Assembly (NCBI GenBank): GCA_016183065.1
Contig: JACPFF010000012.1
Span: forward strand, 1-29,025
DNA: 29,025 nucleotides
Direction of reading: 5' to 3'
DNA from: Deltaproteobacteria bacterium
GTDB lineage: Bacteria > UBA10199 > GCA-002796325 > JACPFF01
Shown here: piece after piece, positions 24,488-27,375 of the stretch
Position numbering within the stretch: the stretch's first letter is position 1
Layout: each line of letters starts with the position of its first letter
Position numbers and translations under genes: made by a program
The notes under the pieces: generated by a model
Database searches by the model: none
Seen by the model: only the letters and a program-made list of their open reading frames with translations
Told to the model about the DNA's origin: nothing

Positions 24488-25262
24488 AACAAAAAGGCCC
24501 CCGGTTGGAAACCGAGGGCCCGCACCGCTTTGCTCCTTGTAGAACCTGGCTCATCGCTTAGGGGCAGGCTTGCGTTTCTTCAGAGTCCTCGACGCCCTCT
24601 GGCCGAACCTCTTTCGAGGCCGCATACTTCCCTGTGGTTACTCCGTTCTTCCGTGGGGAAGGGGAGCTCCGCTTCGAAGTGTTGCACCAAGGGGACGCTA
24701 CAACGACTTTTGTACCTGGGATGGGTGCTTCTGCCGTTGTGCCTCTCGTGAAATTTCCCCACCTCTATGGATATTTCCTCAGCGATTATAGGCTGCTTCC
24801 AGCCCACTCCGCGTGTTGACTTGACCCATGCACCCCTTACGGCGCGCTGACGTCGGTCATGTCGCGTATTGCATCGGGAGAGGAGAGCCGTTTCCCTTGC
24901 GGTACTTTCGGCGTCCATTTTGGTGTTTCATCCGCTGTGTCCTGAACCCTTAAGTGGGGCGGCTCCGTTGCGTTCACTCCGCAGAAGGCGGCAGGTGTTG
25001 TCACCAACCCTTGCACGTTCTGTTGAACGGTCACCGGTACACTGCCTAACGGGGGCCCAGCGATCAGGTCGGGGCGCCTCCCTAAACGATGAACCAGCAA
25101 GTTCTCAAAGAGCCAACGCCGTCCTACAGGTGCGCTTAGACCATAGGCCGCGATACCCGCTCAATGGGTGGGATGATCTACCTGCCGCAAAGGTGCGTCC
25201 AGTCTGGCAGGAAAAGGTGAGTGGAAAAAAATCACCTCCTGTGGATAACTCTTTTCTTGTTC
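24488..25262 (-). ncRNA. Candidate structured noncoding RNA of about 0.78 kb
   Basis: This stretch has no convincing protein gene on either strand, yet it is GC-rich, ends in an intrinsic terminator on the minus strand and has an AT-rich upstream region with a possible -10 box (TATAGT, 25275-25270). Local hairpins are dense. In minus-strand order they include GGUGA/UCACC (25236-25216), CCUGCC/GGCAGG (25211-25181), CGUUC-AACA-GAACG (25029-25016), GUUG-GUGA-CAAC (25008-24997), CCGC-CUUCU-GCGG (24991-24979), GGCUG-GAAG-CAGCC (24804-24791) and CCUC-GAAA-GAGG (24619-24608). Two loops are GNRA tetraloops. I looked for signatures of RNase P RNA, tmRNA and SRP RNA and found none. The 5' end is uncertain. 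It may be an unrecognised known class or a new large RNA. Confidence 0.45.
24491..24520 (-). terminator. Intrinsic terminator of a minus-strand transcript
   Basis: Read as minus-strand RNA: GGCCCUCGGUU, loop UCC, AACCGGGGGCC, then UUUUUGUU. All eleven pairs form when one G-U is allowed. The plus-strand version has a C-A mismatch and no U tract, so the hairpin is built for the minus strand. No protein gene precedes it on that strand within 700 bp. Confidence 0.85.
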
Positions 25263-25396
25263 GAACTACACTATATTCATATGTATTTTTATGTCGTTAG
25301 ATAAATATCTCTCAAGAAACAGATGGAAAACATGCGCGCTCGTATTGAAGAAAAAACGAAATACTCACACTCCAGAAAAAAACGAGAGACCGCCGT

Positions 25397-25452: not shown

Positions 25453-26088
25453 GTGGTCATTACCTGTGATGCGGTCTTGAAGGTCTTTCCGCCGGGGACA
25501 CGCGCGGTCGACGGAGTTTCGCTCTCGCTCCCGCCGCGCACAGTGGCGCTCCTCTCCGGAGGGAATGGCGCGGGGAAGTCGACGCTGCTCCGCTGCATCG
25601 CACGGCTCCTCCGTCCGACCCGCGGGTCCGTCCGCTATGGCTGGGATCTGCACGCACCTGGACTCCCTCCACCGCTCACCTATCTCGGCGAGGCCGATTA
25701 CCTCTACGGGACGGCCACAGTGGGAGAAAACCTCCGGATCGCGCAGCGCTTGGTGCACGCGCCGGCGCAGCATTTGGAGCAGAGTGTGACCCTCTGGGGG
25801 CTCGATCGTTGGTGGCAGCGACCGTGCCACGAGCTCTCCCGCGGTCAACGGCGCCGGGTGGCCTTGGGACGCGCCTGGCTTGTGGCCACGAAGGTGCTGT
25901 TGCTGGATGAACCATTGGTCGGTCTCGATCCCGCAGGTGCTGCGCAATTCCACGCGGCCGTGCGGGCCGTCGTGAACGAGGGGCGGGCCGTGATCGTGGC
26001 TTCACAGACCGCCGAGGCGTTTCAGGGCCTCTTGGCCATGGAATGGCAGATGGAGCAGGGACGTGTGGTCCACACTGTGGCGCATTGA
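25453..26088 (+). CDS. ccmA: Haem exporter ABC ATPase CcmA
   Basis: CcmA is the ATPase of the CcmABCD complex, which releases holo-CcmE after haem attachment in system I cytochrome c maturation. The 211-residue protein has Walker A SGGNGAGKST, the signature LSRGQRRRVALGRAWL, Walker B VLLLDEPLVGLDP and a Q-loop region (YLGEADYLYG). Its small size and the ARLLRPTRGSVRYG block fit CcmA rather than general transporters, and the three following genes confirm the assignment. The start is a GTG at 25453; no strong ribosome binding site is visible. The 3' end overlaps ccmB by 26 bp. Confidence 0.93.
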   Translation: MVITCDAVLKVFPPGTRAVDGVSLSLPPRTVALLSGGNGAGKSTLLRCIARLLRPTRGSVRYGWDLHAPGLPPPLTYLGEADYLYGTATVGENLRIAQRLVHAPAQHLEQSVTLWGLDRWWQRPCHELSRGQRRRVALGRAWLVATKVLLLDEPLVGLDPAGAAQFHAAVRAVVNEGRAVIVASQTAEAFQGLLAMEWQMEQGRVVHTVAH

Positions 26089-26713
26089 AAGTCGCGGAAT
26101 CCGGCGCGACGTGATTGGCGTGGCCGAGTTGATCGGTTTTGTCGTCCTCTCCCTCCTGATTTTTGCCTTTGTTACGCGGGCTGTTTCGATCCCCGCACCC
26201 CTCATTTTGTGGGTTACTCTTCTTTTTGGTGGCGTCTTGTATTTGGGACGGAGTTTTGACCGGGAGTGGGCCAGTGACGGGTCGCGCGTCCTTGAAGGTC
26301 TTCGGATGATTCCCGGGGCGATTCCACGACTCTTTTGGGTCAAATGGGGGAGCAATTCCCTGGTATTGCTCCTGGTCTCGCTCCTTGCCACGGGCCTCCT
26401 GATGCTCTTTCTGGAAGAGCCAGGGGGATGGTTGGCGTGGAGTTGGTTGCCGCTGGTCATTGGTTTGTGCGGTTTTTCCGCGCTCGGGACCTTGTTTGCC
26501 GCCGGTGTGGTGATGCAGACGCGGCGGGAATATCTCCTGGCCATTCTTTGTTATCCGCTCGCTATTCCCCTGATTTTGGCCGTCTCTCAATGCCTGACCA
26601 ATGGCCTCGCTACGGGGCGTGTCGACCCGGTCTGGATCAAATTGACAGCAGGCTGTGCCCTTCTCTATATCACGGTTGCGTCGTTACTCTTTCCCTATCT
26701 GGTGGAGGAATGA
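26063..26713 (+). CDS. ccmB: Haem exporter permease CcmB
   Basis: A 216-residue integral membrane protein with six hydrophobic segments, including ELIGFVVLSLLIFAFV, LILWVTLLFGGVLYL and LVLLLVSLLATGLLMLF. The cytoplasmic stretch SFDREWASDGSRVLEGLRMIP is the conserved CcmB loop that contacts the CcmA ATPase. Length and hydropathy are normal for the family. Translation starts at a GTG inside ccmA (26063), and the stop overlaps the ccmC start in AATGA, which indicates coupled translation of the three subunits. Confidence 0.93.
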   Translation: MWSTLWRIESRGIRRDVIGVAELIGFVVLSLLIFAFVTRAVSIPAPLILWVTLLFGGVLYLGRSFDREWASDGSRVLEGLRMIPGAIPRLFWVKWGSNSLVLLLVSLLATGLLMLFLEEPGGWLAWSWLPLVIGLCGFSALGTLFAAGVVMQTRREYLLAILCYPLAIPLILAVSQCLTNGLATGRVDPVWIKLTAGCALLYITVASLLFPYLVEE

Positions 26714-27375
26714 TGATCCGTCTCTGGACGTTTGGCGTGGTGATCGTGGCGATGGCCAGCGGATATTGCATCCTCTATGTGGCACCCCCGGAGGCGATGC
26801 AGGGGTACGTCCAGAAAATTTTCTACATCCACATCAGTTCGGCCCTCTCGATGTATGTCGGATTTCTCTCGGCGGGTGTGGGGAGTCTCCTCTATCTCCT
26901 GCGGCGTGCAGAGTGGGCTGATGCCTTGGCGGTCGCGGGTGCGGAGGTGGGGGTCGTCTTCTGTACCATTGTCTTGACCACCGGCCCGATCTGGGCACGG
27001 CCGATCTGGGGGGTCTGGTGGACCTGGGATCCGCGGCTGACGAGCACGCTCTTTTGCTGGCTGATCTTCGTCTCGTATATTCTCGTGCGGCATGCGCTGG
27101 AAAACCCCGAGCGCCGTCGCTTGGTCAGCGCCGCCGTGGCGATCATCGGTCTCCTCGATATTCCGATCATCCATTTCGCGGTGAAACTTTGGCGTGGCGC
27201 CCACCCGTCGGTCAAAGGGACGAAAGATGCAATGCCGATGGAGATGTACACGACCCTCTATCTGACGATGACCGCGGTGATCGGTCTGGCCACGCTGTTG
27301 ATCCGACTCCGGTACCTCATTGAACGGCGCAGAGAGACCGGGAACTTCCTGCAGGAGGGGATGCCGTATGCCTGA
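26710..27375 (+). CDS. ccmC: Haem-handling protein CcmC
   Basis: CcmC presents haem to the chaperone CcmE at the periplasmic face. The ATG at 26710 overlaps the ccmB stop and follows GGTGGAGG; the frame is open further upstream but that part lies over ccmB. The 221-residue protein has six membrane segments, the tryptophan-rich WWD signature GVWWTWDPRLTS between segments three and four, and conserved periplasmic histidines flanking it (YIHISSALSMY and IIHFAVKLWRGAHP). All these features are diagnostic of CcmC in the haem-handling protein family. ccmE and ccmF are not in the window and must lie elsewhere. Confidence 0.95.
   Translation: MMIRLWTFGVVIVAMASGYCILYVAPPEAMQGYVQKIFYIHISSALSMYVGFLSAGVGSLLYLLRRAEWADALAVAGAEVGVVFCTIVLTTGPIWARPIWGVWWTWDPRLTSTLFCWLIFVSYILVRHALENPERRRLVSAAVAIIGLLDIPIIHFAVKLWRGAHPSVKGTKDAMPMEMYTTLYLTMTAVIGLATLLIRLRYLIERRRETGNFLQEGMPYA

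Follow-up and report, generated by a model that had tools for sequence, protein, structure and literature searches.

The window, by which we mean the whole stretch of 29,025 nucleotides analysed here from a Deltaproteobacteria bacterium, encodes a structured RNA on its minus strand at positions 24490-25128, identified by covariance models, alignment and folding (Table 1). Across 24490-25250 on this strand there is no credible gene; the open reading frames there are merely mechanical, and none is conserved. The minus-strand RNA folds more stably than shuffled sequence (z = -3.5), and the excess over shuffles is weaker for the plus strand (z = -1.9). A first-pass annotation had described a gene-free stretch and proposed that the minus strand encodes a large structured RNA, possibly new, that ends at an intrinsic terminator of its own. 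The gene-free stretch is real, as is the terminator, which is broken in its plus-strand version, and the proposal as a whole is strongly supported by homologues, covariation and the lack of an Rfam match. The most telling features of the locus are nevertheless ones that this annotation overlooked: a long-range helix (P1), a boxA motif and a DnaA box.

Divergent from the RNA gene, at 25453-27375 on the plus strand, lie an ABC-transporter ATPase gene, CcmB and cytochrome c assembly genes, which form a cytochrome c maturation cluster. To the right of the window, the same contig (G000:C21) carries a 6S RNA (L058 7890-8084) and, from L058 13582 onward, the start of an rRNA operon with 16S, two tRNAs and a 23S gene cut by the contig end. 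In the related genome G001, the 23S rRNA gene on contig C23 contains a group I intron (L059 8287-8556, minus strand).

Table 1. Features of the RNA locus in window coordinates, in order of transcription. Alignment A7 and models R1-R3 are described in the text.
Feature	Position	Strand	Sequence or details	Basis
DnaA box	25240..25248	-	TTATCCACA, perfect, the sole such box in the window; P1 lies about 150 nt downstream	
Putative promoter	25135..25164	-	-35 TTGAGC (25159-25164), 18-nt spacer, TG-type -10 TCTAAG (25135-25140)	
boxA antitermination motif	25102..25114	-	GGCTCTTTGAGAA	motif match beside P1
P1 5' arm (leader strand)	25080..25106	-	core UUCAUCGUUUAGGG at 25080-25093; helix 1	
Domain 1	24932..25072	-	helices 2-5	A7 consensus, covariation
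Domain 2	24760..24925	-	helices 6-10; conserved GGAAGC hairpin	R2 abutting R1, covariation
Domain 3	24575..24753	-	helices 11-20; most conserved domain	R1/R3 models, covariation
P1 3' arm (trailer strand)	24541..24563	-	CCCUAAGCGAUGAGCCAGGUUCU	helix 1 covariation
Intrinsic terminator	24496..24521	-	12-bp stem, then T run; -22 kcal/mol, z = -4.1	

Homologues and the covarying fold

The blastn search that the first-pass annotation had suggested, run against 99 related genomes, yielded two pairs of short collinear islands, in G001 (same family) and G002 (same order). When the window, G001 and G002 are aligned, the islands stand at near constant spacing. A covariance model of the 3' domain built from these three sequences only (R1) identified 28 copies; they occur in 24 of the 46 species genomes examined for the phylum ('Deltaproteobacteria' MAGs), and the same 46 genomes were examined for the class. 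R1 E-values were near 1e-50 to 1e-55 for the seeds and 3e-28 to 9e-9 for new members. Matches across the 24 genomes range from 9e-9 to 2e-55, and the E-values of all three models are rough because calibration was short. A middle-domain model built separately from R1 (R2) hits the stretch immediately 5' of the R1 match at nearly every locus, though the loci were picked by R1 alone.

A refined model (R3), which like R1 is based on domain 3, was run over 385 genomes and recovered the same 24 genomes plus one outside the phylum, G223. The small phylum to which G223 belongs has a second positive genome, G385, with two dispersed copies. R2 abuts the R3 matches in this second phylum (E 2e-8, 1.5e-4 and 0.012), which makes distant homology likely. 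In G223 the first R3 match is followed downstream by another, weaker one (L132 1022-1284, minus strand), and the RNA in this genome may be larger, with a duplicated domain. In G396 (L147), a marginal R3 match (E 1.5e-4) has no full-length R2 match adjoining it. Neither R1 nor R3 matches in 22 of the 46 phylum genomes, including near-complete ones in families f9 and f14. With no match in about half of the phylum, the RNA is either not essential everywhere or has diverged past the reach of the models.

The full-length alignment (A7) contains 24 sequences with a median pairwise identity of 51% (range 43-87%), and its consensus has 100 base pairs in 20 helices. Although the controls leave some effects of shared ancestry, the margin of covariation is very wide: 92.1% of alignment cells are paired, compared with 71.7% in shuffled alignments and 36-50% in slid structures; 87 of the 100 pairs have changes on both sides, with 545 such cells against 180 in shuffles; and the covariation score is 0.64, compared with 0.10-0.19 for slid structures. 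Three of the four hairpins named in the first-pass annotation lie within helices supported by covariation, namely CCUC-GAAA-GAGG (helix 20), GUUG-GUGA-CAAC (helix 5) and GGCUG-GAAG-CAGCC (helix 10); the fourth, CGUUC-AACA-GAACG, is present but lies in a variable region.

The fold is closed by P1, a leader-trailer helix of 13-18 bp in most copies that encloses a core of about 570 nt in three domains (about 140, 165 and 180 nt for domains 1, 2 and 3). P1 was first seen as two reverse-complement islands, UCAUCGUUUAGGG and CCCUAAGCGAUGA, about 530 nt apart. In A7 this helix (helix 1) has 15 pairs, 13 of them with compensatory changes, and 93% of its cells are paired. Its outer part varies in sequence with pairing kept in each of the three sequences compared (for example, GGGAAUCAC/GUGAUUCCC in G002). 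The P1 span is just 436 nt in G012 and about 510 nt in G016, and both have a gap in the domain 1 region.

Transcription signals and DnaA boxes

We tentatively read the -35/-10 pair in Table 1 as a promoter; comparable TTGNNN-16/18-TNTAAN pairs are found 5' of boxA in many homologues. Transcription would then start near 25128 and yield a transcript of about 640 nt, rather than the ~780 nt originally estimated. A TATAGT box (25270-25275), previously noted as preceding the RNA, is probably not the promoter: homologues do not share it, and the better conserved pair common to them is about 130 nt closer to the RNA. At the other end of the unit, most homologues have a T run within 120 nt 3' of P1.

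Just 5' of P1 lies the motif GYTCTTTGANAA. The published boxA consensus, which is gamma-proteobacterial, is GYTCTTTAANA (PMC5725501). Of 27 copies, 19 have a strict boxA motif next to P1; the background frequency of this motif is 23 in 1.94 Mb of strands. In G031, the RNA leader and the 16S leader share one boxA sequence, GCTCTTTGAAAA. In the window's genome, the leader of 16S contains GTTCTTTGAAAT. The window's boxA departs a little from the consensus of the family, with GAGAA in place of GAAAA.

Upstream of these elements are perfect matches to the DnaA box consensus, TTATCCACA/TGTGGATAA (PMC8203912, PMC12371093). We counted perfect sites in zones of 270 bp upstream of P1 at 24 loci and found 26 in 6.4 kb of zones, compared with 1 in the other 67.6 kb of flank; the zone was chosen after the boxes were first noticed, and the contrast is far beyond the effect of such a choice. 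At least one perfect box, in either orientation, is present at 17 of the 24 loci, and several loci have two or three. At most of these 17 loci, about 130-160 nt separate the nearest box from P1, a conserved spacing that is consistent with a DnaA-controlled promoter. A perfect box is missing at the remaining seven loci (four in family f5, plus G020, G025 and G042). Because the boxes occur in both orientations, they point to a DNA site rather than an RNA motif. Perfect boxes are scarce genome-wide, with just 10-26 per genome in five genomes checked. The dnaA locus of the window's genome has a single perfect box, immediately 5' of the probable dnaA start codon.

Tight double DnaA boxes were also seen in family f3, which lacks the RNA, beside mnmE-mnmG-like or HU-like genes; those at G003:C59:22099 and G005:C28:1245 are 5' of an HU-like gene.

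The presence of DnaA boxes beside an AT-rich stretch raised the question of whether the locus is oriC, which is ruled out by GC skew on long contigs. In G031, the skew changes sign near 740 kb and the RNA is at 240 kb; no skew switch occurs at the RNA locus in G016, G002 or G000 (the window's contig). The locus could still be chiefly a DNA element, that is, a DnaA-titration, DnaA-reactivation or origin-like site (cf. datA, DARS), with an RNA that is secondary or that modulates DnaA binding in cis. The strong enrichment of boxes upstream of the RNA, and their two- or threefold occurrence at several loci, would fit such an element. We nonetheless consider it unlikely: a DNA site has no need of covariation through an RNA of about 570 nt, one box region serves four RNA copies in G041, some loci have no perfect box, and the skew data just described speak against an origin. 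The boxes instead resemble those of DnaA-regulated promoters, at which DnaA acts as an activator or a repressor (PMC8203912, PMC12371093), in that they lie at the putative promoter of the RNA. Our searches of the open-access literature turned up no account of a large structured RNA with a conserved DnaA-box promoter, of an RNA family of this kind, or of boxA paired with DnaA boxes on a structured RNA, and a report that we did not see is possible.

Genomic context and known RNA classes

The RNA is mostly present in single copy, with tandem copies in G041 (four) and G044 (two). The units of the G041 array are spaced at 617-638 nt (L126 3103-5221, G041:C341). Each tandem copy in these genomes has its own boxA and P1, and DnaA boxes are found at the first copy only, which suggests that an array is made as one long precursor that is cut into units. 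The G041:C341 contig ends near the first of the four copies.

No reading frame is conserved across the family. Every sense frame is interrupted by stops, most gaps have lengths not divisible by three, and the codon periodicity that the first-pass annotation had named as a possible refutation is absent. A protein gene is rejected on these grounds. Neighbouring genes are kept within families and differ between them; by our reading of their sequences, they are RdgB-like in f19, HisG-like in f13, and TsaE- and HesB-like in f15. The membrane protein gene downstream of the RNA in the window had been suggested as a partner, in analogy with OapA. This idea is rejected, since the flanking genes vary by family and the downstream ORF matches no Pfam family. 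Given the lack of a conserved frame and the variation of neighbours between families, we conclude that the RNA is a free-standing gene of its own.

Differing neighbours would also be expected of a mobile or selfish RNA element, whether ribozyme-driven, retroelement-like or phage-derived, moving from site to site. The tandem copies in G041 and G044, the dispersed copies in G385 and the patchy presence of the RNA are compatible with this explanation. However, copies are mostly single and neighbours are kept within families, the RNA has its own boxA and terminator with no associated ORF, and no phage, plasmid or viral contig matches the family; spread by such vehicles was looked for and not found. 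We regard a mobile element as improbable, about on a par with the DNA element considered above.

It is much less probable still that the RNA is a divergent member of a known large class (OLE, GOLLD, ROOL, RNase P, tmRNA, an rRNA fragment, or a group I or II intron), even though its size and ornateness are near those of OLE, which is about 600 nt (PMC9723947). The cmscan search proposed at first pass covered the window and 16 further sources and gave no Rfam 15 match at gathering score; at relaxed E-values, no meaningful match appeared for the window (E up to 10) or for homologues. No SSU, LSU or 5S rRNA model matches the window or the homologues, and the OLE, GOLLD and ROOL covariance models do not match at either threshold, so the earlier comparison with these three classes does not extend to membership in any of them. 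RF00010 (RNase P RNA) has no match at the RNA locus, and RNase P RNA was located elsewhere in all nine genomes tested. There is no tmRNA within the window (ARAGORN, Rfam) and no tRNA (ARAGORN).

The family shares with OLE (RF01071) a length of about 600 nt, a chromosomal location, an ornate structure, phylogenetic depth and a function that is not settled. It differs from OLE in the absence of a covariance-model match and of a conserved OapA-type neighbour, and in its clade. We know of no description of boxA or DnaA boxes for OLE. Like GOLLD and ROOL, the RNA is large and ornate and has no obvious protein partner; those RNAs come from phage and prophage genomes, frequently close to tRNA islands (PMC12286853), whereas this family resides among housekeeping genes, and its lack of phage, plasmid or viral-contig matches sets it apart. 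Least probable of all, the locus could be a long cis-regulatory leader belonging to the downstream gene, or else a protein gene in decay: a 352-aa ORF does lie on the same strand 22 nt past P1, but the intrinsic terminator separates it from the RNA, the downstream gene is different or on the opposite strand in most homologues, and a codon signature is absent.

A predicted transcription unit resembling pre-rRNA

The boxA of rRNA recruits an antitermination complex; after it comes the leader strand of a leader-trailer helix, which is essential for 30S formation (PMC10250234). The family resembles pre-16S and pre-23S rRNA (PMC10250234, PMC5725501) in having boxA about 8-22 nt from the leader strand of a long leader-trailer helix. 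As in pre-rRNA, this helix encloses a multi-domain, untranslated and highly structured RNA, and the boxA is the same as in the 16S leaders of its own clade. The order of elements is also that of rRNA: putative promoter, boxA, leader strand, folded body, trailer strand and terminator. Unlike pre-rRNA, the unit matches no rRNA model, has a core of only about 570 nt and its own terminator, and lies apart from the rRNA operon, with 16S about 38 kb away on the same contig. Judged by a boxA directly before a leader-trailer helix, the unit would work like an rRNA-type transcription unit and is not a member of rRNA.

We favor, with a probability of roughly 0.6, a new family of large structured noncoding RNA, encoded by a free-standing gene and made as a precursor built like pre-rRNA. 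RNA polymerase would initiate at a promoter located about 100 nt downstream of the DnaA boxes. The boxA in the short leader would recruit the Nus/S10 antitermination complex and allow the long untranslated RNA to escape Rho, as expected from established knowledge of Nus factors. The transcript would fold into P1 around the three multi-helix domains and end at the intrinsic terminator. Within a tandem array, a single DnaA-box region upstream would serve several units. Since each tandem unit has its own boxA and P1, P1 is probably also a processing stem, of RNase III type. The placement of the predicted DnaA sites suggests that RNA output is tied to growth or replication via DnaA. Because conservation is deep and there are no conserved neighbours, we think it most likely that the gene yields a stable and abundant RNA that acts in trans, as an RNP scaffold or a ribozyme.

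The novelty resides in the RNA family and in the architecture of its expression; the loose label 'large ornate RNA' is not itself new. Large structured bacterial RNAs without an assigned function are few, and new phylum-conserved classes are rare. Our analysis supplies a covariance model for the family and a defined candidate transcript. More speculatively, and with less confidence than we place in the family itself, the RNA could be a machine of the standing of RNase P or OLE, a ribozyme or RNP scaffold that is ancient (at least two phyla), made at rRNA-like rates by way of boxA and coupled to replication by DnaA. The rRNA boxA and the DnaA boxes are two built-in clues that would link an RNA outside the ribosome to the two great growth-linked systems of the cell, ribosome synthesis and the initiation of replication.
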